DNA of 64,000 bases, from the NCBI GenBank assembly GCA_963575745.1, contig CAUYUJ010017639.1, positions 62,001 to 126,000 on the forward strand, given 5' to 3'. Source of the stretch: Prorocentrum cordatum. Taxonomy: Eukaryota; Sar; Dinophyceae; Prorocentrales; Prorocentraceae. Made by a program: the position numbers and the translations under genes. Under the pieces are notes generated by a model. That model was not told where the DNA came from, ran no database searches, and saw only the letters and a program-made list of their open reading frames with translations. Positions 1 to 48,519 of this stretch are shown one piece after another. Numbering within the stretch: the first letter of the stretch is position 1; each line of letters opens with the position of its first letter.

Positions 1-507
1 GGGCCAACCGCAGACGGGCACTCCCAACGCGTGTGCCGAAGGCGGGTCTGAAATCGGCGCGCGAGGGCGATGACAAGCCAAAGCTGCCGCCAGCTGGGCG
101 GCCCCCCTTGGCCGCCCCGACGCGGCGCCGCGACGAGCGAGGGAAAAAAGGGGGGGCGCACTGCTCGGCGGACACCAGCCCTGTCGCTGGGTCGGCCGCT
201 CCGTGCTCACGCATGCAGGGGCACAGGCGCAGTCGGCACGCGCCCTGAGGCATGCTGCTGCGCGCGCGCCAGGAGGAAACACGGAAGGCACCTCCCTTGG
301 ACTATCAACCAGGCCCTCCTCTGCGATGGCCCCCGCCCGAGCCAGGGCAATGCTTGCCACTTCTTGTTCTTCGCTCGAAACGAAGCTGTGACTGTGACCT
401 TCCACTTCCTGGCCCGCAGCGAAGGCGCGTTAGTGGCAATTGACTGCGCCCCCTATCCCCGGAAGCTGAATAAGCGCAGCGTACTTGCGTGCCCCTCTTG
501 TCTCTTC
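1..507. other. 5' flank of the LTR retrotransposon, no gene recognised
   Basis: GC-rich sequence with several overlapping open frames on both strands, none with a recognisable domain or protein-like composition. The last four bases (CTTC) are one copy of the target-site duplication of the element that follows. Confidence 0.5.
504..507. repeat. Target-site duplication, left copy (CTTC)
   Basis: CTTC directly precedes the TG of the 5' LTR and CTTC directly follows the CA of the 3' LTR (12,469-12,472). A 4-bp duplication is within the 4-6 bp range usual for LTR retrotransposon integrases. A 4-bp match arises by chance about once in 256 tries, so it is supportive rather than conclusive. Confidence 0.7.
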
Positions 508-603
508 TGCGTCTCTCCGACAGCATGTGTACCGCGAGCAGTGCAGTGTAGCATAGATGCGAACAGAGGGTGCATGCATAATTGCATTGCTTCCCATGGC
601 ACG

Positions 604-614
604 TTTGGCTCAAG
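604..614 (+). other. Spliced-leader (DinoSL) 3'-end relic in the 5' LTR
   Basis: TTTGGCTCAAG matches the last 11 nt of the dinoflagellate spliced leader exactly. It is preceded by CCAT plus six unrelated bases, and CCAT also occurs in the leader just upstream. It is not followed by GT, so it is not a leader donor site. The likeliest origin is capture from a trans-spliced transcript. The same sequence is at 12,247-12,257. Confidence 0.6.
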
Positions 615-639
615 GCTCCGAGCGGAGTCAGAAAAGGGT

Positions 640-729
640 GCATCTTTCCTTTACCCTACCTCTTTACTTACTCTTCCCTCTTATCATTCTTTCTCTTGAT
701 TGTCATTCTTTCTCTTGATTGGCGGCCAG
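640..729 (+). promoter_or_regulatory. Candidate trans-splice acceptor in the LTR
   Basis: A long pyrimidine-rich tract (about 640-720) is followed by its first AG at 728-729, 53 nt before the polyprotein ATG at 783. This is what is expected of a spliced-leader acceptor. Inference from composition only; no transcript data. Confidence 0.35.
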
Positions 730-782
730 AGAGAGAGCCAGGGAGACAGGGGGAGGGAGCAGAATAGCCAAGAGGGTGAGCA

Positions 783-3700
783 ATGACCGAACCAGGAGAG
801 GGCCCTCCTAGGGCGCCGCTCCAACAACTGGGGGCTGCTCCGGGAACTGCTCACTCAGCGGGGATTGGAGCCCCGACAGCGGACGACGACGGAGCCTCGG
901 CAGACAGCTTTGCCGACGCCCTGGGAGGGGCAGCAGAAGCCCCGGCTGCTGGTCGCTACGGCCCCGTTGTGGGTCGAAGGAGCCGCTGGGACGAGACTCC
1001 AGAAATGGCAGCAGCACGAGGAGCTGCAGAGGCTGACGCGGCAGCAGCGGCCGCTTTGGCGGCCATGAACCAGGCCTTGCCTGCAAGCGCGGGATTGGAC
1101 CCCGCAGAACAGCAGGAGCTCGAAGAACTTCGGGCCCTGGAGGCCCAACACCAGGCCCAACAACAGCAACAGAAAGCCGAACTCGAACGGCTCCGGGCCT
1201 GGAGGGCTTCTCTGCCTCCAACCCCGCCTGGCCTCGGCGGCGCGCCCGGCACTCCAGCGAGGGGGCCATACTACAGCGAGTACGCTCAAGGGCGTTTGCC
1301 CGGCACGCCGTCGTTGGCGGAGCGGCGCGCCGCGCTTGGCGGAGACCTTGGCGCCGCCGCTGGGGGGCCCGTGGCCTTCGGGGGCCAGCCAGGAGGATCG
1401 GTACCTCCAACGCCGCAGACTCCACGGTTCGGCGCACGAGCGCCGCCTGAGCAGCTAGGCGGACCGACGCTTTCACCAGAGAGCCGGGCCGTCCGGCGCC
1501 TCGCCTCAGAGCTGGACCACAGCGTCGCGACAGGCGGCGGCGAGCCCCAGCGCCCAGAGGCCGGTGTGGGTTCGACGGATCCCATTGAAGTAATGGCCCG
1601 GTCGGTCACTGCACTGGTTACGGCCATGCAGGAGCAGCAGTCTGGGTCGACGCTCAAGTGGGAGCGAAAACGTCCAACGGTCAAGGCCGAGTCGGCCGAA
1701 GGGCTCCTTCACGAAGAAGTAGTCCTCGAGAACGTGTATGCTGAACTGGGTTACAAAACGTACCGCAAGAAATGGGCTGTTTTCAGGCCTGCCTTGGACG
1801 GCAGGGCCAGAGAGACCGTAGAGCTAGAGCTCGAAGAACGCGGAATCAGCCCAGACACGATCAGCAAGATGAGTGAACCAACGCTGAAAAACCTGTACGA
1901 GTATCTCATCGCTGTTCTCGAGAAAACAGTGTCCCTCACCCCAGAAAAGAAAGCGGAAATCGCAATGGCTGCGATGGAAAAGGTGCGTATGCCAGCAAAC
2001 AGCGGCCCCGGCGGCGCTGAGAAATTCATTCAGGACTACAAGCATGCGTATCTTTTGCAGCTCAGAGCGAAACTGGTGGAAAACACTCCCATCGCAATCA
2101 CGATGCGTCTGTTCGACTATAAGTCGCGTCTCGCACCAGAGATCCAGAAATACATCAAGGGATTGCCTGTGTCAGAGCAGCCCCAGACGCTAACGGACAT
2201 GCACGACACTGTCCGGCGCTGGGCAGAGAAGGAGCGGGCTGGGCAGCCCAACCTGACCAGGCGCGAGCGCCGAGAACAGGTGCAGTCGCTGCGCGACCAG
2301 GGGAGCGGCAACAACACCAACCCGCAAGCTGCTCCAAAAGCCCAGGCCAACTCTTCGTTGGCTCCCCCTGGAACCGTGCCGGTTCCAGTTGAGTACCTCC
2401 AGAGTCTGTTTCAGAAAGGGGGCTTTGCGCAAGCCTTGTCCCGGCCTGGTGGAGGCAAAGCAGGGGATCGGAACCCCAAGGGCCCGGACGCCGGGACTGA
2501 CTGGGCAACGAAAACTTGCTACACGTGCGGGGGCAAGCACCTAGAGAAACTGAGGGGCAAGGAGCATTGCCCGAACAAGATAGCAGAAGAGAAGGGCACT
2601 GCTGCCCAAAACAAAGCCTCCGGCGTCAAGTGCGCAATGTGGGTTGATGCCAGAAAGACAGAGTGTGGAGGATCTCACTCGTGGGAGGAGCACAAGATTG
2701 CCCTCCAGAGGTGGGGGCCCAAGAAGGACGGAGGAAAGGGGGGCAAAGGAGACAGCAAAGGCAAGAAGGGGAAGGAGGGGAAAGGAGGAAAAGGAGAAGG
2801 AAAGGGAAAGGATAAGCTGCACGAGATGACCGAGGATGACTTTCGAGTCTTCTTGGGCGCTCTGGGCTCTTCTGGGGCCAACGCCGGCCAAGACGCTCTG
2901 TGGGCAATCACGGAGTGCACGGCGGATCGGGGCCGCCACGGAGGGCCAAGCGCAGCGGCAAGCGAGAGCGCTGCCGCCAAGTGCGCGCTGATGCATTGCT
3001 ACCGCGCTGCGTCCGGCACACCTGAGTCTGAGAGCACCCCTGACGGGGCAAACACAAAGGAGGGCGATGAGCGCAACGCGACATTGAGCCCCAAAGTTTC
3101 ACTTGAGGTCGGCGGTATGAGCGCCCATGCTGGGGCGCGCGCCGTGTCTGCAGGGGCCGCCGGGGACGGAAGGCCAGGGATTGGAACCCTGATGACTCCC
3201 CCGGACAGCGGCCCAGCCTCAAAGAAGGCAGCTGTGACCCAGGACATGGGAGCAGCACTCGTGGTCGTCGTAGACAGTAGTAGGTCTGAGGAGGAGGACA
3301 GAGGAGCGGAGACGAGTGATGAAGAGGAGGACAGAGGAGTCGATACTGATGAGGAGGAGGACCACATGCCTACAGAAAACGACCCGTGGGATTATGAGGG
3401 CTGTGATCCGGGGATCGGGACCTCGAAGAATCCAGTTCTCTGCGGTCCGGGCTGTGATCCAGGGATTGGTGCTCTGACGAATCCAGCTCCGTGCGGCCAG
3501 AGCCGTGATCCAGGGATCGGTGCCCTGACGAATCCAGCTCTTTGTGGCCTGACGTCTGGCACATCCTCCAGGGCCCAGGATATGGGGAAGGAGGTTGAGG
3601 AGAGTATGCTCATGATGATCGAGCAGCCAGTGTGCCGTTTTTGTGTGAGTGCGCCCGGCACCTTTAGGTGTGTCAGCTGTGCGCAGTTGGTGTGCGGAGC

Positions 3701-6700
3701 CTGCGCCGGCCAGGACGCGGTGGGGCGTATCCGCTGCCAGGTCCCCTGCCTGAGTCGTGAAGCGGAGCATGTAGATGGTTCTCTTCGTCAACGTCTTCGT
3801 GCAGGAGGGGCGGAGGCCGGCGAGGGAAGATCCCCCGGCCAAGCCAGTGGCCAAATGGCCCCAGTAGTAGGAGGAGGGATCGGAGCCCTCCGGAACGGAA
3901 TCTTCGAGGCAAATGTCGAACTGTTGCCTTCGGAGTGCGTGGGGGTGGGGCCGGATAGGCAGCCTACCCCTGACGGCGCGTTGCTGTCCTGCCCGGTACG
4001 GGTAGGGGCATTCGTTGCCGATCTATTCGTCGTAGTGTGGACTTGGGTCGTGATTATTCCCACGATGCTGGGATGGTCAGTCGCGCAGTGCCGGAAAGAC
4101 TGCAACTGCGTAGTCAACCCTACCACGAAAGCCACTTGTGGCGAACCGTGCTGCCTGGAGGCCGACCACGGGCCAGGGTGGAAGCACTGTTGTGCAAGGC
4201 ACTTGGAGCAGGCGGCCGGCATGGCGGGAGCGGAACTTGCCTCCTGGAGAGCCGTCCGGCGTGTCTTCCGAGTGGGCCGATCGTGCAGCCGGGCAGCCAG
4301 GACGACAAGCAGATTCTGGCATCGGTGGTGTGTAGTTCGACTCGCCTCCGTTGCAGTCGTGGCCGTACTGGTTTACTTGAGTGGGGTACTGGGTCAATTC
4401 CGTGACGAATTTGATGATGACTGGATGCGGCCTTCTCTCGAGTACGAGCCTGACCAGCCACGTCCAGGAAAATCTCACGATTCTGACTCGCCCCAAGAAC
4501 TGTTCAATATGATGCAAGATGGCTTGTACAGGCTTCCGCAAGGGTACCATAAGCGAGCTTACGTGCACGTTGGTACCGTGAAGGTGTTGACCACCTTTGA
4601 CTCTGGCAGTTTCCGGAATGCTGTCAACGCAGAGTTCTTGCGGACCTTGGAGCAGAAACAGGCGACAGGTGAGCTAGGCGACCACAGGGTGATCTCCAAG
4701 AGAATGCCTTGCGAACGACGAGAAGTTGGAGGGGCAACCCAGGGCATGCAGAGTGCCTACAACGAAGTAGTCGTGATCCAGGTCGTCTTCAAAGACCCTT
4801 CTGGTCGGACAGCTACCGTGCCGATCGTTTTCTGCGTGATGGAGGGTCTCACAGCTGATCTCCTCCTTGGATGTCCAACTCTAGACCGCCTGTGGTACGG
4901 CAGCACCCGGGACAGTATTGAATTGAGAGCATACGACATCGAAATTCCGAGCGTGGTGCCTCAGGATCTGCAGAACCACAGTGAACGAGTTGCGGTTTTG
5001 ACGGATTCCGTAATCATCCACAGCGCAGAAATGCGGGAACTGTGGGTCCCGACCAACGCAGACCCCGACAAGGACAGGGTAGTGCGCGGAGCGCCACACC
5101 TACCGGCGGAAGTCGTAGTGGCGGAAGGCCCCGCTAAGATCCAAGACGGCCGTGTGAAAGTATTCGTATCTACTCGGACTCCAGACGCCGAGGTGGCTCT
5201 GGGCACTTTCGAAACGATAGCGGAGCTCCACGAGCCTACAGAGGCTGACAGGGAGGACCAAAGAACCATCCGCAGCTGGAGGGTGAACGCCTTGCGGCGG
5301 AACTCAGAAGCATTCGGAGTAGAATATCTGAGGGAGCAGCTTCGCCCGGCAGTCGCCTCGAACACGTCCTCGCGCTCCCGCGGCGCCGATGCTGGTCACG
5401 CGGACGCAGTGGCACACGAGCTACTCCAGGCGCTCGGAGAACAGCCGCGGATCTGGGGATCGGAGCCCCAGGGTCCGGAACTCATCGGCAAAATGGGTTC
5501 TGGCAGCTACAAGAAGCGTTGGCGCGCTGCTGACAGGGCAGCAATGTTCCCCAAGCTACAGGAAGAGATAGAAAAGCAGCGCCACGCGCTAGCAACCCGA
5601 CAAGCCTGGAATAAGTCGTCACCGGAATGGAGGACACGCGTCCGGGAGGTAGCTCAGGGCAAGTTTGGGGGGACACCTGAGGAGTGGAAGATATTCGCAC
5701 GTGAAATCCTGGACAAGTACGCTGACCGTTTCTGGGAGCCCGGCTGTGCAGCGCCGCAGATAAAGAATTTCAAGGCAGACGTTGCGCCGAAGCCTGGGGC
5801 GAAGCCTTCGGCTCGACGCCCGTTCCGGCTGAGCGAGTTTGACGAGGCTCGGCTTGAGTACAGGCTTGACGAATGCCGCGCTTCTGGTCAGCTGTATGAC
5901 GTGTCCCCAGAGGATGCCGGAGAATGGGCTTCACCAGCGTTCATAGTGGATAAGGTGGGAGATGTCTTAGGAAGAGTGGTCACGGACTACGAAGGGCCGA
6001 ACAGGGAAACTGAAGACCACCCAGGAGTGCCAGCAGACGCCGACGAGGTGCTCCGAAAGGCAGCCCACCGCAAATATCACACTACAATGGACATGGTCTG
6101 GGGGTTCTCTCAACTTGAGCTCACGGATAGAGCCCAACGCATTCTCACGATCGTCACACGCCAAGGGTTGCACAGGTGGAAGTACCTTCCTTTCGGGCCC
6201 AAGCAAGGCCCTGGAATCTGCCAGTCATTCAATGATTTCGCCTTCGGGGACTTGGAAGCCACGAGCATTTTCGTTGATGATTTCCACACTGGCAGTGACA
6301 GCTTCGAAGAGCACCTGGCCGACCTCAGGATGCTGCTGGATCGGGGCCGGCAGCACGGGGTTGAGTGGCGATTATCGAAGTGTTCGTGGTGCCAACCGAA
6401 GGTGGTCCTGATAGGTTTCGAGATGTCTGAAGAAGGCAGGAGACCGGACCCGTCTAAGGTCGAGGCCTTGCGCAATTGGCCAAAAGAGACCGAGCTAGCC
6501 GACGTCAGCTCGTTGTTCCATTTTGCCAATTACCTTCGGGAGTTTATCCCTGGATTCGACACTATTGTGGCTCCATTGAAACCGTACAGGCAGAAAGGGG
6601 CCAAGTGGGAGGACTACGTTCAGGACAATAAGGCGCAGGGTGCGGCAGCGAAGCTCCGACAGGCTGTTGCCACTCACACGCCTCTGATGAATCCTGATTA

Positions 6701-9700
6701 CGAGGCTGCGCGCGATTACGTGCAAAGCGGACGTCCTTTCATCTTGTTTGTCGACGCCAGCGACTTTGGATACAGCGGAGTGTTGTGCCAGGCAGACTCC
6801 GTGCATGGCACCCCTCGTCCAATCGCAGTGCTGTCCAAAAGCTTCACAGACACCCAACAGAGGTGGACGGCTATGGAGAGGGAAATGCACGCGCTGTACG
6901 AGAGCGCCATATGGAGCCAGAAGTTTGTCAAAAGCTTCCGCGTGTTCTTGTTCACAGACCATAAGAACAACACCTTCCGGTCGAAAATACAACCCACCAG
7001 GCGGGTCTCGAAGAAATTGCTTAAGATGTGCATCGAGATAGAACCGCTGCTCATAGAGCGGGTGTATCTGGCTGGAGACGAGAACATTCTAGGAGACGCG
7101 GTCTCCCGTGCACCTGCCGACCGCGAGGTGGCACGCAACCTCCCTATCCCATTGAAGCCAATCAAAGAAACCATGAACAGGCTGTTTTGGGCACCTGACG
7201 AGCTGGCAGGACAAACGCGCGAACGTTTGAAACAGCTCAAGATTGAAAACCCCGGCGTGCTCACTTACCTCCCAGACAAAGTGTTGGCCGAAGCTGAACT
7301 CGTGAACGAGGCGCGGCCAGAGGACGAATTGTCAGAAGTTCCCCATGCATTTGGACCAGTCGAAAACTGTAGTTTGCTAGGGGAGGCTAGGAGGAGGATC
7401 GTTGAGGAGGCCACATCCAGGTTGGGGGAATTGGGGGAGGAGCTGCTTCCAGTCACTTCGCACGAGGTTGGGGCGCCAGCTGGTTGGAGCTGTCTGATGA
7501 TGCCGGCCGTGGAGCTCCCTCCAGAACCTCTCCCTGACGAGCTGTTGGGGGCAGAGCGTGTGACCCGCAAGACGGATGCCCGCGGGGACAATTTCATAGC
7601 CTGGTTCCCCAGGCGTCTGAAAGGCTACCTGTCGGGATCGGTACCCGGACGAAAGGAGCCTGTTCAAGAAGGGGCGCGTTGCCTCTGGTACAGCGCAAAG
7701 CTGTACGGAACACGGCGCGCTGAACAGTTGGCAAAACGCCATCTCAAGCGGCCGGAAACACGCAGGGCTCTATGGAGTCGCCTGCAGGAGGGCGAGTTGG
7801 GAGAGCAAAATGTGAGCGACCAGGAGCCGGCAGCAAATGCGGCCCCTCCGCGGCGTCTCCGCGGCAAGCAGCCCCTACGCAAGGCCGAGGGGCGCCCGGA
7901 AGCCGAGGAAGACACATCCGCGGAAGTCGTGGCGGAAGAGACCGGATCGGTACCGGTACCGTCGAAAATCTTCCTCGTAGACCTCTTCGGAGGCATTTCG
8001 TCCTTGCGCGTGGCTGCTGTGGCATCTGGATATGACATTTCTGGCCACGTGCACGTCGACATCAACGGGTCGGCGTGCAAGGTCGTCGGGGATCAGTACC
8101 CTGACGCTCAGCTCCTCCGAGACATACGCCCCGTGGCAGAAAAGGCCAAGCAGGTCGCGTCGGAATGGGTTGGTCAAGCGACCGAAGCAGGAGCGGAGTT
8201 GATTATCCTTGGTTGTGGCTTCCCCTGCCGAGAGTTGTCCGGGGTGAACCTGAATCGTCGTGGCTTGGACCATGGAGAAACGGCGCGGTTCCACGATGCG
8301 AAAACCATAGCATCTGCCGTGCGTGCCTCATCTGTGGAGGCCGGAATGGTGTGCCACATGTTCTTTGAGAATGTGCAGTCGATGCCGGCAGGCGTGGTTG
8401 AGCGTATCACGCAAGAGCTTCGTGAAGTAGATCCGTCGTTCGAGTTGGTCGCCATGGATTCCGTAGGCCTCGGCTGGTGTAGGCGGCCCCGTCTGTGGTG
8501 GACGACGTGGTACGTCCAGCGCTTCGAGGAGGAAGCAGAGACCATTACCAAGGGACTTCGCCACCTCCATCCTTCACTTCCTCTGCCACGTCTGGATACC
8601 ATCTTGGAGGACGGCTTCGCGCCCCGGTGGCCGGAAGACGGTTCTGAGGAGGCTCGGAGGTTCCACACCTTCACTCGTTGCCAGCCGTCCGACGCCGAGC
8701 CCTCGAAGCCGGCTGGTGCGGCGACGACCTCACCGGAGGCTCTGGCACGCTGGAAGCACGACAAACACCGATACTCCCCATACCAATACGAATCGCACCT
8801 TTTGGTATGGAAGCAGGACGATTGGAGGTGCCTGAACGGCAACGAGCGTGCCAAAATGCTCGGGTTCCCGTCTGGGTATCTTGATCTAGGACAGTTGGAG
8901 CCTCTCAGTCAAGACGTCCAGTGCCAGTTAGCCGGTGATGCCATGAGCATTGGTGTACTGTGTAGGCTCTTTGCCTCTATGGAGCCTGCTCCTGGTGCGT
9001 GGCCGCCCCGTACCGTGACCCTGGTGGAGGGTAAGCCCACGATTGGCGACCTGACAGTGGCCGAAAACGAGCCGAAGTCATCAGACGACCCTGCCTATGG
9101 CCCTCACCGCCTCGGATCGGTGCCGTGGCTGCGGGAGGCCCACGATATGAACCCCACGCTGTTGGGAGTAGCTCGCACGGTCGTCGTTCGTCTTGGAGCG
9201 CCTGGTCCTTTCGGCCTCCTCCATGGCGTGGACAAGGTCCAGGGCCACCGTGAGTTACGACAGGCTTTGCCCCATGCGTGGGAACTGCCAGTAGTCAGCC
9301 AAAACGGTTTCGACGGAGTTGCGGTCGCAAGGAATTTGTGTGGCAAGTCGCCGTACAAGTTGCCATCAGACGTAGACCAGGTACTCACTGTACCCCTGGT
9401 GTCGTGGAAGGGTGGCGCCCTCCAGGTGGCTCAGAGCGACGGCCAACAAACCACCACATCCACTCACGACAAGATATTGTGGTTAGAGTTTTCGGGATTG
9501 GAACCCGGAGCGGCTCCGACACTGAGCCTTCAGGAGGTGGACGGTGAAGCACATTTTGTGTATTTCTACCGCCTCAAGGGTCGCAAAGACCCACGGCAGG
9601 TGGCTGACGCCCGGCGCGCGGGTCTGTATCCGTGGCAGCCGGCGGCTCCGAGTCAACCCAAGAGCAATCGCCAGGGTGACGCTCCGAAGGAGCACCCTGG

Positions 9701-12029
9701 GGCGCTGTCCTTGATCGATGTGGAGCGCTGGAGGTTGCGAGCCGCACAGGAGGAGGACGAGGAGGTGAGCCCATTCATATGTCTCCTGGAGAAGGGGGAA
9801 CGCACGCTCCGACGGACACACGACAGGGGGACAGCCGAAACAACTTTGAAGGAGGTCACACATTACGACATGGTCCACGGGTTGCTTTGTAGGAGAGTCC
9901 GGAGCTCTGACGGGCATGAAGCCGTAGTGCCTGTCATCCCTGAGGGTGGTGCTCGTGCCGTGACGTGGAACGGACACCGGCGGGTGCTCAGCTGGAGAAG
10001 TTGGGTGCTCCACATCATGCACAACAGCACAGCGGGGGGTCATGTTGGCATGCCCGCACTGGGGCACAAGGTCCAAGAAGTGGCTTGGTGGCCCAAGGTG
10101 CTGCGTGACTGCACGGCGTGGTGCCGCAAGTGTGTCTCCTGCAGGGCAATCAAAGGACAACCCCACGGTAGCTCTTCCTGGCGCAGCGAGCGTTACACGG
10201 CACCTTTCAGAGTCCTCCAAATCGACCTCGTGGGGCCCCTCGAGCCCGTCAGCGAGGACAAGTCGTACATCATGACAGTGATCGATTGTTTCAGCTTGTG
10301 GGTGTGGCTGGTCCCAATCACCGACAAGACGCCGCTGACTGTGGCGACGGCCCTGTATAACCACGTGTATCTGGACCTCGCCGGGTTCCCGATGATACTC
10401 CGGAGCGACAACGGTAGCGAGTTTGTCGCCGAGCTCACTCGTGAGTTGAACCGCCTCATCGGCACGACGCAAATCTTCGGGTCGGCGTATCACCCTCGAT
10501 CACAAGGTCTTGTAGAGGGTTCACACAAGCCAATGGAAGAAGTGCTGCAGGCATATGTGGAGGAGTTCCCAACAGACTGGTGTGGGAAGCTTCCAATCGC
10601 CGGGTGGGCGTGGAACACGTCTGCAAAGAAGTCGCTGTACGGAATGAGCCCATACCAGGTGGTCACGGGATTGGTACCCAGGAGCCCCCTGGCAAGCTTC
10701 CTGAAGTTGCCGGCGAACGAGAAGGTAACGTGCCAGGAATATGTGGCAGAGCTCATAAAAGCGACAGAACACATCCACGAGCTTGTGCGCACTGCCCAGG
10801 AGAGGCGCGCAGAGGAAGCGCACGCTCGGGCCATGTGTGGCCGGGCCCAGCCGCCGCTGCAGGTGGGGCAAGCGGTCCTGCTGCGCGGCCCACCAGCCAC
10901 AGTGAAGCACGACGGCGAGGTACAAACCGTTTCCAAGAAGCTGCTGCCGAAGGCGCGGCTTGAGGTCTTCCAGATCGTTAAACGAGTAGGGGGGTCCAAC
11001 TACATTCTTGGGGACGTAGCAACAGGGAAGGAAGCGACTGGCTTCAAACAGCCGGTTCACGCAGATCGGCTTGTGCCCGTAGAAACCGGGGCGCTCACAG
11101 AGCCGATGTCTGACGCAACCGCCGTGCAGGTGGAAGGAGCACGTGGCGTGTTGCGCCGGCAGGCAATGGACGGCAGGGTGTTGGTAGATTTTGGTAGCCC
11201 GCGAGCTGACGATGATTTTGCGCGGAAGTTCAAGCAGCTGGGAGCCGCGCTTGCGGAGAGCAATGGTGTGTGGCTAGACTTGAGCCGCTTCGAATGGCTC
11301 CCGTGCGGCGCGGAAGGGATCGGAACCCTGACCGAAGCGCCCGCGACGCCCCGAAAGTGGGCACTCCCTCGTACCATCGTCGTCGCCATCTACATCATCA
11401 CCCTCATGGTTCTCTCCTTCACTCGCGCCGGGGGCGGCGGGCCGAAGGGCACGGTACCGAATGCGCAGCTGAAGCCTGGGCAATGCCGCATTTGCCTCAG
11501 ATTTGGACACTGGGGGAACGAATGCCCGATGAAGGATGTGCCTTGGAGGAACCGGGAGCAGCATCCGGCAGCGACGGAGTCGAAAGCGAGCAGACCGGCA
11601 TCAAGTTCGCACACTCCGCTCCCGTGGAGGAGCCAGGACCGGCGCCCAGAAGCGACGCAGTCGAAAGCGAGCAGTCCGGCATCCGGCTCGCACACACCGC
11701 CTCCGTGGAAGAACCAGGAGCAGCGTCCAGCAGCGGCGCAGGGCGTGCCTCCCTGGCAGGGAGCCAGAGGCGGCGCGGCGCGCAGCAAAGCCAGGCCTCA
11801 GGAGCCGAAGGGGGAGGATCGGGACCTCCCAGGGCCAGCTGCGGACGGCTCGCGCCAGAAGCGGAAAGCTGCTGAGACGACTGAGGAGAAAGTTGCCATT
11901 CAGAAGGTGATGATCATTGACACCAAGACGACTCCGGAAGACAGTGCAATTCCGGACAACACCGGTCGAGGCGACGACTCGCCGAGAGAAGAATACGACG
12001 ACACATTCCCGGATTGGGAAGACCGGTGA
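783..12029 (+). CDS. Retrotransposon polyprotein Gag-PR-RT-RH-C5 methyltransferase-IN
   Basis: One 3,748-residue ORF with no stop or frameshift. Residues about 300-490 are a helical Gag-like region, followed by Cys/His motifs (577-625) and a Lys/Gly tract. A Cys-rich finger lies near 950-990. Hydrophobic segments are at about 1,077-1,099 and 1,184-1,206. Protease: DSG with Asp1273 and a later LLLGCPTLDR segment. RT: FVDD at 1,830-1,833. RNase H: Asp1991, Glu2032 or Glu2034, Asp2059. Methyltransferase: about 2,394-2,735. Integrase: HHCC zinc site (His3077 to Cys3120) and Asp3148, Asp3209, Glu3245 (DD35E), then an SH3-like tail ending VHADRLVP. A third hydrophobic segment (about 3,531-3,548) and a CCHC knuckle from Cys3568 close the protein. 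The start at 783 is the first ATG and lies inside the LTR; the next in-frame ATG is 1,003. All catalytic residues I can locate are present, so the element may be active. Confidence 0.93.
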   Translation: MTEPGEGPPRAPLQQLGAAPGTAHSAGIGAPTADDDGASADSFADALGGAAEAPAAGRYGPVVGRRSRWDETPEMAAARGAAEADAAAAAALAAMNQALPASAGLDPAEQQELEELRALEAQHQAQQQQQKAELERLRAWRASLPPTPPGLGGAPGTPARGPYYSEYAQGRLPGTPSLAERRAALGGDLGAAAGGPVAFGGQPGGSVPPTPQTPRFGARAPPEQLGGPTLSPESRAVRRLASELDHSVATGGGEPQRPEAGVGSTDPIEVMARSVTALVTAMQEQQSGSTLKWERKRPTVKAESAEGLLHEEVVLENVYAELGYKTYRKKWAVFRPALDGRARETVELELEERGISPDTISKMSEPTLKNLYEYLIAVLEKTVSLTPEKKAEIAMAAMEKVRMPANSGPGGAEKFIQDYKHAYLLQLRAKLVENTPIAITMRLFDYKSRLAPEIQKYIKGLPVSEQPQTLTDMHDTVRRWAEKERAGQPNLTRRERREQVQSLRDQGSGNNTNPQAAPKAQANSSLAPPGTVPVPVEYLQSLFQKGGFAQALSRPGGGKAGDRNPKGPDAGTDWATKTCYTCGGKHLEKLRGKEHCPNKIAEEKGTAAQNKASGVKCAMWVDARKTECGGSHSWEEHKIALQRWGPKKDGGKGGKGDSKGKKGKEGKGGKGEGKGKDKLHEMTEDDFRVFLGALGSSGANAGQDALWAITECTADRGRHGGPSAAASESAAAKCALMHCYRAASGTPESESTPDGANTKEGDERNATLSPKVSLEVGGMSAHAGARAVSAGAAGDGRPGIGTLMTPPDSGPASKKAAVTQDMGAALVVVVDSSRSEEEDRGAETSDEEEDRGVDTDEEEDHMPTENDPWDYEGCDPGIGTSKNPVLCGPGCDPGIGALTNPAPCGQSRDPGIGALTNPALCGLTSGTSSRAQDMGKEVEESMLMMIEQPVCRFCVSAPGTFRCVSCAQLVCGACAGQDAVGRIRCQVPCLSREAEHVDGSLRQRLRAGGAEAGEGRSPGQASGQMAPVVGGGIGALRNGIFEANVELLPSECVGVGPDRQPTPDGALLSCPVRVGAFVADLFVVVWTWVVIIPTMLGWSVAQCRKDCNCVVNPTTKATCGEPCCLEADHGPGWKHCCARHLEQAAGMAGAELASWRAVRRVFRVGRSCSRAARTTSRFWHRWCVVRLASVAVVAVLVYLSGVLGQFRDEFDDDWMRPSLEYEPDQPRPGKSHDSDSPQELFNMMQDGLYRLPQGYHKRAYVHVGTVKVLTTFDSGSFRNAVNAEFLRTLEQKQATGELGDHRVISKRMPCERREVGGATQGMQSAYNEVVVIQVVFKDPSGRTATVPIVFCVMEGLTADLLLGCPTLDRLWYGSTRDSIELRAYDIEIPSVVPQDLQNHSERVAVLTDSVIIHSAEMRELWVPTNADPDKDRVVRGAPHLPAEVVVAEGPAKIQDGRVKVFVSTRTPDAEVALGTFETIAELHEPTEADREDQRTIRSWRVNALRRNSEAFGVEYLREQLRPAVASNTSSRSRGADAGHADAVAHELLQALGEQPRIWGSEPQGPELIGKMGSGSYKKRWRAADRAAMFPKLQEEIEKQRHALATRQAWNKSSPEWRTRVREVAQGKFGGTPEEWKIFAREILDKYADRFWEPGCAAPQIKNFKADVAPKPGAKPSARRPFRLSEFDEARLEYRLDECRASGQLYDVSPEDAGEWASPAFIVDKVGDVLGRVVTDYEGPNRETEDHPGVPADADEVLRKAAHRKYHTTMDMVWGFSQLELTDRAQRILTIVTRQGLHRWKYLPFGPKQGPGICQSFNDFAFGDLEATSIFVDDFHTGSDSFEEHLADLRMLLDRGRQHGVEWRLSKCSWCQPKVVLIGFEMSEEGRRPDPSKVEALRNWPKETELADVSSLFHFANYLREFIPGFDTIVAPLKPYRQKGAKWEDYVQDNKAQGAAAKLRQAVATHTPLMNPDYEAARDYVQSGRPFILFVDASDFGYSGVLCQADSVHGTPRPIAVLSKSFTDTQQRWTAMEREMHALYESAIWSQKFVKSFRVFLFTDHKNNTFRSKIQPTRRVSKKLLKMCIEIEPLLIERVYLAGDENILGDAVSRAPADREVARNLPIPLKPIKETMNRLFWAPDELAGQTRERLKQLKIENPGVLTYLPDKVLAEAELVNEARPEDELSEVPHAFGPVENCSLLGEARRRIVEEATSRLGELGEELLPVTSHEVGAPAGWSCLMMPAVELPPEPLPDELLGAERVTRKTDARGDNFIAWFPRRLKGYLSGSVPGRKEPVQEGARCLWYSAKLYGTRRAEQLAKRHLKRPETRRALWSRLQEGELGEQNVSDQEPAANAAPPRRLRGKQPLRKAEGRPEAEEDTSAEVVAEETGSVPVPSKIFLVDLFGGISSLRVAAVASGYDISGHVHVDINGSACKVVGDQYPDAQLLRDIRPVAEKAKQVASEWVGQATEAGAELIILGCGFPCRELSGVNLNRRGLDHGETARFHDAKTIASAVRASSVEAGMVCHMFFENVQSMPAGVVERITQELREVDPSFELVAMDSVGLGWCRRPRLWWTTWYVQRFEEEAETITKGLRHLHPSLPLPRLDTILEDGFAPRWPEDGSEEARRFHTFTRCQPSDAEPSKPAGAATTSPEALARWKHDKHRYSPYQYESHLLVWKQDDWRCLNGNERAKMLGFPSGYLDLGQLEPLSQDVQCQLAGDAMSIGVLCRLFASMEPAPGAWPPRTVTLVEGKPTIGDLTVAENEPKSSDDPAYGPHRLGSVPWLREAHDMNPTLLGVARTVVVRLGAPGPFGLLHGVDKVQGHRELRQALPHAWELPVVSQNGFDGVAVARNLCGKSPYKLPSDVDQVLTVPLVSWKGGALQVAQSDGQQTTTSTHDKILWLEFSGLEPGAAPTLSLQEVDGEAHFVYFYRLKGRKDPRQVADARRAGLYPWQPAAPSQPKSNRQGDAPKEHPGALSLIDVERWRLRAAQEEDEEVSPFICLLEKGERTLRRTHDRGTAETTLKEVTHYDMVHGLLCRRVRSSDGHEAVVPVIPEGGARAVTWNGHRRVLSWRSWVLHIMHNSTAGGHVGMPALGHKVQEVAWWPKVLRDCTAWCRKCVSCRAIKGQPHGSSSWRSERYTAPFRVLQIDLVGPLEPVSEDKSYIMTVIDCFSLWVWLVPITDKTPLTVATALYNHVYLDLAGFPMILRSDNGSEFVAELTRELNRLIGTTQIFGSAYHPRSQGLVEGSHKPMEEVLQAYVEEFPTDWCGKLPIAGWAWNTSAKKSLYGMSPYQVVTGLVPRSPLASFLKLPANEKVTCQEYVAELIKATEHIHELVRTAQERRAEEAHARAMCGRAQPPLQVGQAVLLRGPPATVKHDGEVQTVSKKLLPKARLEVFQIVKRVGGSNYILGDVATGKEATGFKQPVHADRLVPVETGALTEPMSDATAVQVEGARGVLRRQAMDGRVLVDFGSPRADDDFARKFKQLGAALAESNGVWLDLSRFEWLPCGAEGIGTLTEAPATPRKWALPRTIVVAIYIITLMVLSFTRAGGGGPKGTVPNAQLKPGQCRICLRFGHWGNECPMKDVPWRNREQHPAATESKASRPASSSHTPLPWRSQDRRPEATQSKASSPASGSHTPPPWKNQEQRPAAAQGVPPWQGARGGAARSKARPQEPKGEDRDLPGPAADGSRQKRKAAETTEEKVAIQKVMIIDTKTTPEDSAIPDNTGRGDDSPREEYDDTFPDWEDR
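829..841 (+). other. Possible primer-binding site
   Basis: TGGGGGCTGCTCC begins five bases after the LTR end, with the TGG that pairs to a tRNA CCA end. I cannot name the tRNA, and the site would lie inside the coding sequence. Weak call. Confidence 0.2.
3405..3545 (+). repeat. Tandem coding repeat carrying three hairpins
   Basis: Three imperfect 48-51 bp copies encode a repeated DPGIG-(A/T)-(L/S)-(T/K)-NP-x-LCG type unit between the acidic stretch and the Cys-rich finger. Each copy contains one ATYGG-loop hairpin (3409-3425, 3460-3476, 3511-3527), so duplication has multiplied the hairpin locally. Confidence 0.75.
7962..8987 (+). other. C5-cytosine DNA methyltransferase domain of the polyprotein
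   Basis: About 340 residues (2,394-2,735) with the C5-MTase motifs in normal order: motif I VDLFGG with Asp2400; motif IV GCGFPCRE with the catalytic Cys2482; motif VI FFENV (2,527-2,531); motif VIII CRRPRLWW; motif IX around ERAKMLGFP; and motif X LAGDAMS. The domain would transfer methyl groups from SAM to cytosine C5. It lies between the RNase H connection (ending near 7,120) and the integrase zinc site (10,011), so it is inserted within Pol rather than added at an end. The target specificity cannot be read from the sequence. Confidence 0.92.
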
Positions 12030-12150
12030 GTGAGTGAACGTGCTGTGCTGCCTAGGCGGATGGACTAGCCGGCCCAACACGGGCGGGTAGCTTTTCTGTA
12101 GGAGAGGCGGCGGGCACTGCGTGGCGAACAGCGCTCGCGGTGGGGCGCGC
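12030..12150 (+). other. 3' untranslated stretch before the 3' LTR
   Basis: 121 bp from the polyprotein TGA to the 3' LTR. A polypurine tract is expected here, but only short purine groups such as GGAGAGGCGGCGGG are present and none abuts the LTR. Plus-strand priming in this element is therefore unclear. Confidence 0.5.
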
Positions 12151-12468
12151 TGCGTCTCTCCGACAGCATGTGTACCGCGAGCAGTGCAGTGTAGCATAGA
12201 TGCGAGCAGAGGGTGCATGCATAATTGCATTGCTTCCCATGGCACGTTTGGCTCAAGGCTCCGAGCGGAGTCAGAAAAGGGTGCATCTTTCCTTTACCCT
12301 ACCTCTTTACTTACTCTTCCCTCTTATCATTCTTTCTCTTGATTGTCATTATTTCTCTTGATTGGCGGCCAGAGAGAGAGAGCCAGGGAGACAGGGGGAG
12401 GGAGCAGAATAGCCAAGAGGGTGAGCAATGACCGAACCAGGAGAGGGCCCTCCTAGGGCGCCGCTCCA
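12151..12468 (+). repeat. 3' LTR
   Basis: 318 bp, near-identical to 508-823, with the same TG start and CA end. It contains the SL relic at 12,247-12,257 and a copy of the polyprotein start codon at 12,428. Beyond the CA the sequence differs from the internal element, as expected for the right border. Confidence 0.95.
12247..12257 (+). other. Spliced-leader 3'-end relic in the 3' LTR
   Basis: The same 11-nt TTTGGCTCAAG found in the 5' LTR. Its presence in both LTRs shows that it belongs to the element and is copied with it. Confidence 0.6.
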
Positions 12469-12472
12469 CTTC
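12469..12472. repeat. Target-site duplication, right copy (CTTC)
   Basis: Direct copy of 504-507. Confidence 0.7.
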
Positions 12473-14310
12473 CGTCGGGGGAGGGTCTGGGCCCTGCTAC
12501 TCTCGAGGGGCGTGGCCGGGGCCCTCCAACGGGAAGACCGCCACTCTGGCGGCGCCGCGCTTCCACGAGGTCGACTGGCCCCCCTCCTGTTCGCGGCCCG
12601 CGGCAAGCCCCCAGGCCTTGGGCTCCTTCCAGACCAGCGCGACCTGCAGGTGCCCTCCCTTGCTGAGCTGCGCGGCCACAGTGCTGGCGAGCCTCCGCGG
12701 CTCGCGTTCCTCGAAGATGCCCGGCGCCCCTTGACCAGCCGGGCTCCCCGCGGCGCGGGGCGCAAGCCTCGCGGGCGACGGCGCGACCGCAAGGGCTTCC
12801 CGGGCGACCTGGGCAGGCGCGCCTCCCGGGAAGACGTTGGCGCGTAGAAGTCCAGGTCGTCACCCCTCCGGGCCCGCGTCGCCGCGGATTCGCACTTCCC
12901 TTGGGTGGCGTTCCAAAAGACTACCTGCAGCCTTAGAGGTCGATGCGCCGCGTTTTGGCGCCTACCTGGGCCGCAGAGGGTCGACCTCGCGCCGCGCGGG
13001 AGGTGGCGCTCTGGCGAGCGGGGGGGTCAGCAGCTTCCGGCCGCTGCGCTTGCCGCTGCGGCCCCAGAGGCGCCCCCCCCCGGTTTGCTGCTGGGGTCGG
13101 GGAACATCAGCTGCTGGGCCGGGGCCCGGGCGCCCCGGGGGGCGCCCCCCCTCGGGGAGCGAGCGGGCGCCGCCCGCCCCGCCCCGCGCGCGAACCGCTT
13201 GGGGCTGGGCTTGCAAGTGCGACGCCGCGCCCGCGCCGCGGAGGATGAGATGCCACAGTCGCTCGAGCGCGCGCGCGCCTTGAATTCCTGGCCACAGGGC
13301 GACCGACGCAGGGCGCCCGCGGGCAAAGGGCGCGCGAGGAGAGGTGGCGACGATTCTGAACGAGGCGGCGGGCGAGACGCGGGCGCCCGCTTGAAGTGGC
13401 CGCCGCGGCGGCCGCGCGTGGCTCCGCGCGGGCGTCGCGGGCCCGTGGGATCTGCCCGGGGGGCGCCAAACAGATCGCTCGCGGCGCCGGCGCCGCTTCT
13501 GTCGAAGATTGCCTGGCCGACCGCGCGCGACTGAGCAGCCGGGCCACGCTGCGACATACCTCGAACAAAAAACGGCGCCCCCCCGGCAAACTTGCCGGGC
13601 GCGCCCCAGTCATGGCCAGCGGCAAGGCAGCCGCGCGCCCGGGTCGCACCGCGCGTTGCCAAGCTGCGGGGGGACCGACGTCGCACCGGCGCGCGCGATC
13701 AGGGGGCGCAACGCGCGCGATGGCAGGTCGGCGACCGCCGTCGACGCCGCGCGAAGAACGCGCAGATGGCAATATTCGCACGCAGCGCCACGCGCAACAT
13801 AGACAGCACCAGGCAGGCGCGGTCGAACCGCCGCGCCGCACCAGTCACCTGCGCGAGAAGAGACGACGCCGGCACTTCGGCCGCGCAACGGCAGCTCGAA
13901 GGCGGCCAGTCCCAGCGTTAGGGCGAGCACCTCCAGCCATCCGATCTGTTCGTTGAGGCCATCCGCCCATCGGCAAAAAGGACGGCGGCAACTCTAGCCG
14001 GGCGCCCCCGCGCTTGCGAGGAGTGCGCAACTGTGCAGACACGCGGTGTCCGTCGCCAGCCATTGGCGCGAGGCGGCGAAGTTGCTGGGCGGCGCCCCGC
14101 ACCGCCATGCATTGCGGACGCACGTGGGCCGCGGCGCTCGGGCGACGCGCGCGAGCCCGCTCGGGGATCGGCGGTGGCAGCGCCCGCCCATGGCGCCAGA
14201 TGGCGCGGGGGGCGGCCCGGCAGAAACGGCCCGCAAGCTCGGGCGCGCGCCCGCGCGCGAGCGGGCGGGCCTGAGGAGGTTGCGTGAGCTCGCTTTGCAA
14301 GGATCGCCGC
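12473..14310. other. GC-rich stretch without a recognisable gene
   Basis: CpG-rich sequence open in several frames at once on both strands, giving Arg/Ala/Pro-rich conceptual products with no motif. In composition it resembles 25,480-28,590. I see no gene, tandem repeat or mobile-element end. Confidence 0.5.
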
Positions 14311-15140: not shown

Positions 15141-18100
15141 TCACTTGTTTGCGAAACACGTCTGCTTCGACAAGCGGGGCTTCTTAGTGTTCTGCTTCTG
15201 CCCGCCCGCCGCCGCCGAGTCGCCAGCAGCAAAGTAGTGCGGGTTCGTATCGATCGCTTCGAGGCTCCTCCGCAGGGGGACGCCCTCCTCCACCCCTGAA
15301 GCGATCTGAACCAAACGCGGCTTCTGAAACGTGAAAGAAACATCTTTGCCGTTCACTTGGATGGTCATGTGCCAATCCTCGTGATCGACGCGGTGGGTCG
15401 CAATCTCAGCGACTACGCTCTCAGCTTTGTCAGCGGACAGCTCGGCGACAAGAGAGGCGCCAGCGCTAGCGTCCTTCGCCTTGGCCTTGCCCTTGGCTTT
15501 GCCTTTGGGCATGGCCTTCGGCTTCGGAGCTGGCCTGACCCTTGTCGGCTTGACCAGCCAACCTGGGCAGCTCTCTGAAAGGCCGTACTCGAAATGGCCA
15601 TAAAATTCTAAAAACAATTCGATGCCGCGCGAACTGCCGATAGGAATCAGGCTGGCGCGATTAATGCTGCGAGCAACGGCCTTAGGGACAACGCGGCCCC
15701 ACAACTCGAAGGATGTCTGGATCGAGCCTGGGCGCTGGAAGATGTCCACCACTTTGGGGGCCCCCTGCTTGTCGGTGCCCAGCTCGAAGAAGACTCCGCC
15801 CAAGCCCTTCAGCCAGTTGCCCGACGCTGCGTTCGCGAACAAATCTGCCTGGAGCTTGCTGCACAGCAGCTTGGTGACAACGCCGCAGCTGGCATAGTCG
15901 AAGGAGCCGTCGCCCTCTGGCGCCGCCTCGTCGGACATGGCCCTAAAAAAAACTGAACTGATATCGATCTCTCCAGGCACATCGTCGCCCTCAGCTGGAA
16001 CTGGAACAATCGCCTCAGACTGCCGAGCGCGCTTCTTGCTCGGCGAGTGCCCCACCTTGAGCGTCGACGCGAAGGCCGCCTGGATGCGCCGCAGCAGCGC
16101 CGCCTCTGAGGTACCCGCGGCCACGAGCTCACTGGCAGCCTTATCGTCCACGTGTCGCTGCTCGAAGGCGGCTACGAGACCGCGCGCCACGGCCGCCTTC
16201 TCAGCCACGAATATGGACAAGTTCGGGCAAGCCACCTGGTACTTCTCGGCTTCCTTCATGATATGAGCGGTCGAAGCCTTCTCCAAGACGAGCTTGTACG
16301 TGTTCAGCTTCACCTGGAACTCCGTGGAGCTATGAGTCTGAACAAACTCGCAGGCGCGAAGAAGCTCCTTCGCAGTGGCCTTGAGGAATGCAATGTCGCT
16401 CAGGCCCGATCCGTCCGCGATCTTCAGCAGCTCGTCGGGCGCGGTGCCGCTCGTCAGCAGCCCGTTGACAAAATGCATGAACTCCGACGGCAAGATGGCG
16501 CGCATGCAGGCGTCAACGGAGTTGGCGGGCACGCCTTTGAAGGGAATGGCGCCAACGCGAGTGAGAACCAGCAGCCAGTACTTGATCCGCATGGCCCTTC
16601 GGGCTCGCAAAAAAAAACTCCTCCCTTTATCCTCCCTGCCCGGCCACCTCCTTCCTCCTCCCCCCCCCCCCCCCCCACGCAGCCCGCAGTCTGGCAGGTT
16701 CGGCGGCCGATCCAAGCCCCTGGGCCGAACTTCGGCCCAGGGGGCCCAGGGGCTTGGAAAGGACACCCTCCTCCGCTGCCGCAGCTGGGAGAGAAGAGGA
16801 AGGAGGAGTAGGAGGAGGAGTAGGGGAGGAGGAGGAGGAGGAAAGGAGGAGGGGGAGGAGGAAGGGGAGGAGGGGGATGGAGGAGGAGGAGGGAGGACGT
16901 CGGGGGAGGAAGGGGAGGGGGAGGACACAGGCGAGGGCAGGAGGAAGGAGGAGGATGGCAGAGGAAACGAAACTTTGATTAGCAGGAGTCCTGACTCCCT
17001 GACGGCCGACGCCCATCTCCTTCAGCTGCAAGAAATCCGACGAGCAGTTCTCCGTCGGAGTCTGCGCCTGGATGGCGGCGCGTAGCTTCTCGTTGGCGCT
17101 CAGGAGTTCCAGCTGGCCCAGGGCGGTCACGAGCTCGTCGGATAGCACGGATGTAATAGCTGCCCAAGCGTGGCCGTTGACGATGTCCAAGAGGGTGCTG
17201 TCGTTGATGTGCTGCTCTTCGGGCTTCGCCGCGTGGATATCCGACATGACCTGCATAAGGCAAGTGTTGGCACATTGCGATGGTGCAATCTGGCAAGCAA
17301 TCGGCACGGCAAGATCGTTCTGCTTGAAGAAGGCGACCGCGGTCTTCATCATGGTGACGTTGGCCTCCGTCGTCAGGTAGGTGATCGCGTCGCCCTCTGA
17401 CCAGCTCTCGATGGTGCGATCATCCGCATCATCGTCATCATCCTCATCGCTGTCGTCGTCGATGTCGCGATCGGTGACAACCCCGCTCACCGAAGCGGCG
17501 TACTTCCTGATGACCTTCCGCAGGCTCGTCCAACACTTGTACACCTTGGGCTTCCCATCCTGGATGGCGAGGGTCACCTGGCCCTCGAGGGCCGCCGTCA
17601 AGCAAATGCCCTTGATGATATCGACCTCGTTGCTGCTCATGCGGAAGACCTCCGAGCATTGGGTGATCAAGCAATCGATCCGCCCGTACATGCAATCCTG
17701 GTTGAGCTCTTCAGACGGGTCCACTGCCTGAGTCGGGCTCGAATTCTGCCTCCTGGCGGTGGAACTGTCCTTCTTCCCCGCCTCCTTCTTTGCCGCAGCA
17801 GCAGCCTTCTTCCCCTGCTTCATGATCTCGTCCGAGATGACCTGCTTGATCTTGTCATTGCTCACTTTGCTCGTGAGGCCGAGAAGCGTGTCCTCAGTGA
17901 CGTGCTCGACGTACCTCTTCCCAACCATGGTGATGCCGCACTTGTTCTTGCTATGGAGCCGCGGGAGCATGCACTTCAACACGTCCATGGCGCGTTCGGG
18001 GCTTGACCAGGCGAACGTTTTCAGGACCAGAGAGTTGTTCTTGAAGATCACGGCGTTCTTCATCTCGCTCTGGACCCACTTGAAGTCGCAATGTTGCATG

Positions 18101-19058: not shown

Positions 19059-19440
19059 GGAGGTTGGCGGGAAGTCACACAGGATATGGTTCTCTTCAAG
19101 CGTGGCTCAACATTTCACAGATCACATTCGAATAGGACAACGTGTTCCTTCCTTGTTATGTGTGAGCTGAGCTTTAATGTTTGAGCATGCGGTTCCTTGT
19201 TCACTTTGATTGATTATGCGGACCTGTTCAGTTTCGTATCAGCTCTACTGGATTCGTTTCAAGTTCTGCTTAGTTTCGCCAGAAACACAGCCCCATCTAA
19301 GGATCCGCGAGGTGAGATTCAAAAGCACGTTTGAGACACATTCCAAACCAGATGCTGATTGCATGTTCTCAGAACCGGTGCTCACCGACCCCTAGGAGGC
19401 AATGCGCTGCTTCAGTCAACCACCAGAGTCAATCCGCAAT
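19059..19440. other. Intergenic, no feature recognised
   Basis: AT-richer sequence than its surroundings, without an ORF of substance. It may hold the promoter of the minus-strand gene, but I see no motif. Confidence 0.4.
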
Positions 19441-19445
19441 CCGCC

Positions 19446-24165: not shown

Positions 24166-24196
<31 letters not shown>

Positions 24197-48505: not shown

Positions 48506-48519
48506 TAGGGATGACCGGC

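Follow-up and report, generated by a model that had tools for sequence, protein, structure and literature searches.

A sense-strand array of about twenty shared-loop hairpins in a young Ty3/gypsy-type retrotransposon family of Prorocentrum cordatum, possibly sites of RNA self-recognition

Studies of MS2, satellite tobacco necrosis virus (STNV) and enteroviruses reportedly found packaging signals dispersed along the viral RNA. The stem-loops of the retroviral Psi signal present unpaired G in their loops to the CCHC knuckles of nucleocapsid, and binding to the unpaired G of a loop is common among CCHC knuckles. Dispersed packaging signals are described for single-stranded RNA viruses in a 2018 review, which also suggests many dispersed RNA contacts for repurposed Gag-like proteins (PMC6281560). 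For long terminal repeat (LTR) retrotransposons, another source states that packaging of Ty3 RNA depends on untranslated regions or POL sequences and that the signals of Ty1 lack precise definition (PMC4974528). Here we analyse a window, that is, a whole stretch of 64,000 nucleotides (nt), from Prorocentrum cordatum (assembly GCA_963575745.1, contig CAUYUJ010017639.1, positions 62,001 to 126,000, forward strand), which contains an LTR retrotransposon of Ty3/gypsy type. This young retrotransposon family has a real and strongly non-random array of some 20 hairpins, all on the sense strand. The array resembles the packaging signals of single-stranded RNA viruses in that one coding RNA contains numerous degenerate hairpins whose loops have a motif in common; unlike those signals, the hairpins lie in an LTR retrotransposon, are known here from sequence alone, and have an invariant first closing G-C pair, a near-invariant second one and a fixed geometry of 5 base pairs (bp) and 7 loop nt. 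Ty1 and Ty3 share with this locus an LTR retrotransposon RNA, selected by Gag in their case, but the cis-acting sequences known for them lie near the ends (PMC4974528), whereas the signals here lie along the open reading frame (ORF). The likeness to Psi is in the loops with unpaired G; Psi, however, is a compact 5' cluster, and the present sites number about 20 over 11 kb.

Nineteen sites occur in the ORF, all on the sense strand: a scan of the window found 18 with the exact core GGATYGGDVCC and one variant, GGATTGGTGCT, at 3463. The original prediction of about 18 hairpins between 859 and 11329 was right as to the array, which has 19 sites and extends to 11829. The hairpin rows below, including a degenerate site 20, rest on the core scan, on a comparison of core-aligned sites and on a covariance model. 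Sites are named in the text by the row start plus 3, so that site 3463 is hairpin 8 at 3460 to 3476; L052 and L053 are related copies of the element in contigs C8469 and C15145.

783 to 12029, plus strand: polyprotein ORF, 3748 amino acids, 11.2 kb, with Gag-like, reverse transcriptase (RT), RNase H, DNA methyltransferase (DNMT)-like, integrase and C-terminal zinc-knuckle parts
859 to 875, plus strand: hairpin 1, 13 nt behind the primer-binding site
1089 to 1105, plus strand: hairpin 2, kept in L052
1392 to 1408, plus strand: hairpin 3, kept in L052 and C16776
2462 to 2478, plus strand: hairpin 4, 4-bp stem
2921 to 2937, plus strand: hairpin 5, stem of 8 bp in L052
3175 to 3191, plus strand: hairpin 6, kept in L052
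3409 to 3425, plus strand: hairpin 7, within a 51-nt tandem repeat
3460 to 3476, plus strand: hairpin 8, variant with a G-U pair, within a 51-nt tandem repeat, canonical in L052
3511 to 3527, plus strand: hairpin 9, within a 51-nt tandem repeat
3874 to 3890, plus strand: hairpin 10
5454 to 5470, plus strand: hairpin 11, 7 bp
6335 to 6351, plus strand: hairpin 12, 9 bp in total, within the conserved RT region
7632 to 7648, plus strand: hairpin 13, kept in L053
7941 to 7957, plus strand: hairpin 14, lost in L053
8087 to 8103, plus strand: site 20, degenerate with loop ATCAGTA and a single G-U pair; L053 has the canonical form
9111 to 9127, plus strand: hairpin 15, 3 contiguous bp, also based on local folding
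9492 to 9508, plus strand: hairpin 16, 7 bp
10665 to 10681, plus strand: hairpin 17, 3 contiguous bp, in the conserved integrase region, also based on local folding
11314 to 11330, plus strand: hairpin 18, 4 contiguous bp
11813 to 11829, plus strand: hairpin 19, also kept in C16776 and in fragment C13292 (65% identical)

Ten of the 19 sites lie within the first 3.1 kb of the ORF. Contiguous stems reach at least 5 bp in 15 sites and at least 4 bp in 17. Other features named by the original prediction also stood: the loop is 7 nt long at all 19 sites, the 9-bp stem near 6338 is real, and the loops fall in all three codon phases (7, 4 and 8 sites). The antisense strand of the ORF has no hairpin site, and no exact core lies anywhere in the window outside the ORF. 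In the 51,971 bases that follow the ORF, the relaxed pattern GGATYGGNNYY with a stem was absent from the plus strand; on the minus strand it occurred twice with at least 3 bp, once with at least 4 bp and never with 5 bp. When any closing pair was allowed, ATYGGDV loops with at least 4 bp were found outside the ORF at 36352 (plus), 39181 (plus, 6 bp) and 59365 (minus), none of the three closed by GG/CC. The earlier statement that no equivalent loop and stem exists elsewhere in the window thus holds for GG/CC-closed hairpins and fails for these three.

Shuffling the ORF with its amino acids and codon pool kept (n = 500) gave a mean of 0.45 hairpins with at least 5 bp (maximum 3), against 15 observed, and a mean of 0.74 with at least 4 bp (maximum 4), against 17. 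Dinucleotide shuffles (n = 200) gave a mean of 0.13 with at least 5 bp and a maximum of 2. The codon-preserving check proposed with the original prediction therefore did not reproduce the observed count. When loops of 5 to 9 nt were compared, a dominant pentamer was found in the ORF solely for the 7-nt class (ATCGG 10, ATTGG 4, next 2). Hairpins with a shared motif are thus present above chance across the RNA, as dispersed packaging signals would be. That chance, codon usage or repeated peptides produced the array has next to no probability: three sites lie within a 51-nt tandem repeat and are thus not independent, but the codon-preserving shuffles and the use of three codon phases speak against this explanation, and a peptide repeat was rejected on the same two grounds. 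The in-frame tandem repeats of the ORF comprise three units of 51 nt at 3398-3550, with a hairpin in each, and two units of 81 nt at 11541-11702.

The repeated unit has a stem of 5 bp and a loop of 7 nt. Among the 19 core-aligned sites, pairs 1 to 5 are formed in 19, 19, 19, 17 and 16; pair 6 is formed in 7, a level equalled by 15 of 1,000 shuffles, and pairs 7 to 12 are close to shuffled levels. Since pair 6 forms in 7 sites and pair 5 in 16, we place the end of the stem at pair 5. Five kinds of standard pair occur at pair 3, three at pair 4 and five at pair 5. With the 3' letters shuffled as a baseline (n = 500), 94.7% of cells were paired against 68.6%, the covariation score was 0.651 against 0.159, and 24 cells were changed on both sides against 7.2; no shuffle reached any of these values. 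Sliding the 3' arm by one base lowered pairing to 52-61%. The earlier claim that pairing is kept while the stem sequence changes is borne out by the covariation score, which compares different sites of one RNA and not homologous columns. Because the sites are not homologous, the covariation speaks for conserved pairing at every single site and not for compensatory change by descent. The single near-homologous case of pair exchange is pair 4 of the 51-nt tandem repeats: two of the units have A-U there and the third has G-C, or A-C in the C8469 copy. An A follows the stem directly on its 3' side in 14 of 19 sites, and the other flanks and the outer stem bases are dissimilar. Loop position 3, which precedes G, is C in 13 sites and T in 6. 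This alternation, together with CA at site 8090, is a pattern that would result from CpG deamination.

Local folding with three window sizes gave the sites mean pairing probabilities of 0.58, 0.50 and 0.44, compared with 0.24-0.25, 0.24 and 0.22 for 103 other hairpins of the ORF with 5 bp and a 7-nt loop. Predicted folding supports the array, although not strongly at each site. A covariance model built from the 19 sites scores them at 21.0-29.4 bits, high by construction. Site 20 (8085-8106) scores 17.7 bits, the best other place in the window 13.6 and the best place in 200 kb elsewhere 17.4; as the score of site 20 is about that found elsewhere, its assignment depends on the L053 homolog. An Rfam search of window positions 1-13000 with E up to 5 returned four sub-threshold matches, none overlapping a hairpin.

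Searching the 4.13-Gb assembly, which was used for all genome searches, with the RT gave at least 92 matches. Eleven of these fall in seven close copies, the window's included (RT identities 100, 99, 96, 90-93, 84-91, 88 and 68-81%), and 81 are 31-44% identical. The close copies appear to share the hairpin array. L052 is 91% identical over window positions 873-3883 and fully covers eight sites, of which five keep at least 5 bp (1092, 1395, 2924, 3178 and 3463) and all eight match the covariance model (15.8-27.6 bits). L053 is 82% identical over 7441-8701; it keeps site 7635, and the hairpin at 8087-8103, degenerate in the window, is canonical there, so that two of three sites are present counting site 20. 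In the C13292 fragment, whose protein is 65% identical, GGAGGATCGGGACCTCC stands at the place of site 11816, as placed by arithmetic. No similarity was found for L051, the matches listed for the SGGGG stem class described below include no fully compensated stem at the place in C8469 that corresponds to site 3877, and no relative in viral contigs was confirmed.

More distant relatives were compared by peptide alone, a hairpin in any frame being scored as one of three short peptide signatures. The window polyprotein (P0001) has 20 hairpin-compatible places, against 3.2 in shuffled protein. The 49%-identical relative P0002 has one, a conserved integrase peptide, against 2.15 expected; P0003, P0004, P0006 and P0007 have 1, 1, 0 and 0; and P0005, a Gag piece of 55% identity, has three against 0.46 expected. 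P0002 ends where the C-terminal extension of P0001 starts and has no CCHC motif with the spacing of the C-terminal knuckle. In this comparison the hairpins and the extra zinc knuckle appear to co-occur.

The same alignments bear on whether small mobile hairpins inserted repeatedly into the element, an option raised with the original prediction. When aligned with P0002 or P0005, the sequence has gaps around several of the sites, and some other repeats bear hairpins of the SCGGG class, both as insertion would predict. However, at sites 6338 and 10668 the protein aligns without a gap to the 49%-identical relative, which argues that no cassette was inserted at these sites, so that at least two sites lack a gap; the flanks and outer stem bases differ apart from the 3' A; the sites are sense-strand, covarying, independent of phase and present in close copies; among the matches listed, two stem classes (SGAGG and SAGGG, below) have no excess of pairing; and 200 kb of other genome sequence held no GGATYGGNNCC hairpin with at least 5 bp. 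Mobile hairpins are extremely unlikely, and we rejected them for their unrelated flanks, covarying stems, want of shared borders and absence, at 5 bp or more, from the 200-kb sample.

In the genome as a whole, where an equal frequency of the motif in host sequence would count against the original prediction, the bare core is common (43,964 places, against 14,996 for the backwards control), and stems of at least 5 bp were present at 2 of the first 30 places. With the stem specified, counts against backwards controls were 152 and 10 for SAGGG..CCCTS, 122 and 18 for SGAGG..CCTCS, 187 and 43 for SCGGG..CCCGS and 164 and 47 for SGGGG..CCCCS. The bare core is itself in excess over its backwards control, and repeats add to the excess. 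A better control than the backwards pattern is the ambiguous outer pair, paired or mispaired, at the places listed (100 for each of SAGGG, SGAGG, SCGGG and SGGGG, from contigs up to about C15816, C18457, C15159 and C15245). For SGAGG, 35 of the 100 matches listed were paired (5 in the window's family) and 65 mispaired (23 of them one repeat, none in the family); for SAGGG, the figures were 30 paired, 7 of these from the family, and 70 mispaired, with a single repeat accounting for 50. Neither class has an excess of paired stems among the matches listed. For SCGGG, 12 of 13 readable places were paired, including one 17-mer eight times and another three times.

Among the matches listed, GCGGGATCGGAACCCGC occurs in 8 contigs and the 17-mer GAGGGATCGGTACCCTC in C3073, C5091, C11492, C13507 and C14074. 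In C3073 and C5091 another stem class lies 4.3-4.5 kb from GAGGGATCGGTACCCTC on the same strand, and in C14074 a zinc-knuckle match lies 9.5 kb downstream, also on the same strand. A second repeat family with GAGGGATCGGTACCCTC hairpins may therefore carry a few. Same-strand clusters of SCGGGATYGGDVCCCGS were found at C6002:1076704-1080993 (6 copies), C14941:44992-50996 (5) and C4487:15145-22380 (4); as these clusters do not recur among the matches listed for three other stem classes, we read them as repeats of one unit. By eye, no listed stem-class place lies near any of the 81 RT matches of 31-44% identity; one contig is shared, with a distance of 420 kb.

These data are relevant to a reader supplied by the host. 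A host RNA-binding protein might bind the hairpins for export, translation, stability or localisation of the long RNA, and the shuffle excess, pair anatomy and covariation would be the same. Similar hairpins in other repeats (GAGGGATCGGTACCCTC in 5 contigs, GCGGGATCGGAACCCGC in 8) suit a shared reader, which would become more plausible if the second hairpin family were confirmed. Nevertheless, the missing pairing excess of the SGAGG and SAGGG classes and the distance of all listed places from the divergent RT matches speak against a host reader, and we consider it unlikely.

The other features of the element are as follows.

507 to 823, plus strand: 5' LTR, 98.7% identical to 12149-12467
829 to 845, plus strand: primer-binding site, tRNA-Pro type, matching a host tRNA family of 17 tRNA-like genes
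11484 to 11525, plus strand: C-terminal CCHC zinc knuckle, amino acids 3568-3581, candidate reader, Pfam matches below curated cut-offs
12149 to 12467, plus strand: 3' LTR, from repeat comparison

The LTRs are 98.7% identical across 319 positions, which indicates a young insertion. The ATG that starts the ORF lies within the 5' LTR. One polyprotein contains the Pfam domains RVT_1, RT_RNaseH, Integrase_H2C2 and rve in this order, and a tRNA primer-binding site lies behind the 5' LTR, as in Ty3/gypsy elements. In the 5' LTR, TTTGGCTCAAG at 604-614, with a second copy in the 3' LTR, resembles the end of the dinoflagellate spliced leader. Beyond the element, a minisatellite at 19438-19897 has at least 13 units spaced 31-34 nt apart, each with a small palindrome GTTGACTC..GAGTCAAC, and long minus-strand ORFs of unassigned nature lie at 15141-19014, 21307-24203 and 48505-50813.

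The primer-binding site at 829-845, TGGGGGCTGCTCCGGGA, matches 17 host tRNA-like genes at their 3' ends (12 fixed pattern bases; backwards control 0). In eight of these genes the anticodon place reads TNGGG, as in proline tRNA; ARAGORN detected no tRNA, either in the window or in a 200-kb sample of other genome sequence. The hairpins, in their many copies, might mimic the anticodon arm of tRNA-Pro and bring in prolyl-tRNA synthetase together with the primer. Their 5 bp, 7-nt loop, U33 and the YGG letters of a proline anticodon would suit such a role, as would the fit of the primer-binding site to these genes. On the other side, position 32 in anticodon numbering is always A, position 37 is variable, with A at 8 sites, T at 7 and G at 4, and the closing GG/CC is conserved, none of which is known as a property of tRNA-Pro, and 9 of the 17 genes lack TNGGG. 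The T-arm or B-box has a matching geometry and GG/CC, but its positions 54 and 58 do not fit. There is a precedent in HIV-1 (human immunodeficiency virus type 1) RNA, where a copy of the anticodon arm of the primer tRNA is bound by lysyl-tRNA synthetase (LysRS) (PMC11181671); the anticodon-arm geometry and the primer tRNA anticodon letters are alike in the two cases. The HIV-1 element, as described there, is however a single copy near the primer site, and here positions 32 and 37 misfit. One copy near the primer site would suffice, so 19 over 11 kb would be odd; one hairpin lies beside the primer-binding site and the 18 others extend to 11829. We regard mimicry of tRNA-Pro as very unlikely indeed.

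Between RNase H and integrase lies a DNMT-like region (Pfam DNA_methylase, E 0.0035, below the cut-off). The nearest solved chains are 4onj (E 0.015), then DNMT3B and DNMT3A (E 0.037-0.092), and no protein relative of the region was found at E 0.001 among 7997 scored candidates. At 7968-8700, a DNMT3-like domain lies inside a Ty3-type polyprotein. One study describes DNMT-bearing retrotransposons of the LINE (long interspersed nuclear element) and DIRS types in Symbiodinium and a Gypsy carrier in the charophyte Klebsormidium (PMC5890265). The window's element shares with these a DNMT3-like domain in a retrotransposon polyprotein; unlike those of Symbiodinium, it is Ty3-type (PMC5890265). The term stem-loop does not occur in the main text of PMC5890265.

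Given this domain, the sites might act as DNA, as directional inverted repeats bound by the element's integrase or DNA methyltransferase or by a factor of the host, and the C or T at loop position 3 would represent a CpG/TpG alternation. Yet a DNA-binding protein needs no covarying arms of any sequence, and the single orientation of all 19 sites suits RNA; we judge sites acting as DNA to be very unlikely. Binding by the encoded methyltransferase, an option of the original prediction, was weakened by the same loop position, C in 13 sites and T in 6, and by the resemblance of the domain to a DNA methyltransferase.

The analysis directly showed the structure of the hairpins and their strand, that they exceed chance, that the sites covary and that close copies contain them. 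What we infer for the RNA level, the reader and the function is that the hairpins may be recognition sites on the genomic RNA for RNA selection and assembly, a reading that we favour tentatively, at somewhat less than an even chance. The sense orientation, covarying arms, fixed loop and freedom of codon phase point to RNA recognition, and to this extent, together with the presence of the sites in close copies, the original suggestion of a protein-bound RNA signal is supported in part. That the sites are present in close copies, and that none of the stem-class places listed lies near the distant RT matches, suggests a reader travelling with the element, and the distribution of the sites over the RNA would lend itself to numerous contacts of low affinity in RNA selection and particle assembly. 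The genomic RNA would hold about 20 copies of a single protein-recognition hairpin: its stem would have 5 bp, of which two G-C pairs close the loop, and its loop of 7 nt, AUYGGDV, would expose an unpaired GG. The reader would recognise the shared loop and the closing pairs, while the outer three pairs would merely have to pair and could drift with the coding sequence. A likely reader would be an RNA-binding part encoded by the element, which may be Gag or else the additional CCHC zinc knuckle at the C-terminus. Through many weak contacts, the particle could select its own 11-kb RNA from host mRNA, and the contacts may help to condense that RNA.

Several observations weigh against recognition of the genomic RNA. 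Two of five pairing measures are unremarkable, namely pairs changed on both sides (reached by 337 of 500 shuffles) and further pair types (35 of 500). Eleven other GG/CC-closed hairpins, site 20 among them, average 0.40-0.46 in pairing probability, and predicted pairing is strong at some sites only (e.g., 0.0-0.22 at 2465). Three of the eight stems in L052 are broken, 2465 by a 3-nt gap and 3412 and 3514 by a single change each, and site 7944 is lost in L053, so that the pairing expected in related copies is kept in part. As both copies carry stops or frame changes, these losses may reflect decay. Raw differences between the window and L052 number 7 of 133 positions in stems and loops (plus 3 gaps) and 252 of 2865 at other positions (plus 10 gaps). 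SCGGG hairpins are in excess in other repeats; hence, the motif is not wholly private to the window's family. The zinc-knuckle link is based on a single relative. Finally, most internal sequence of Ty1 and Ty3 is dispensable for transposition when the proteins are supplied in trans (PMC4974528), and dispersed signals would therefore be new for a transposon.

It is conceivable, although doubtful, that this lineage evolved a self-recognition code in which an added C-terminal zinc knuckle and about 20 matching hairpins serve dispersed assembly on its own RNA. We found no report of such a hairpin array in an LTR retroelement in the open-access literature, and within that literature this would, if true, be the first one known. 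Dispersed Gag-RNA contacts in retroelements are an open question, for which the element is an unusually clean case: a single motif of constant geometry recurs about 20 times, there is a candidate reader, and a relative that seemingly has neither the array nor this reader could serve as a natural control. If the reading is true, the coding RNA of the element would bear a second, structural code over all three frames of an 11-kb ORF.

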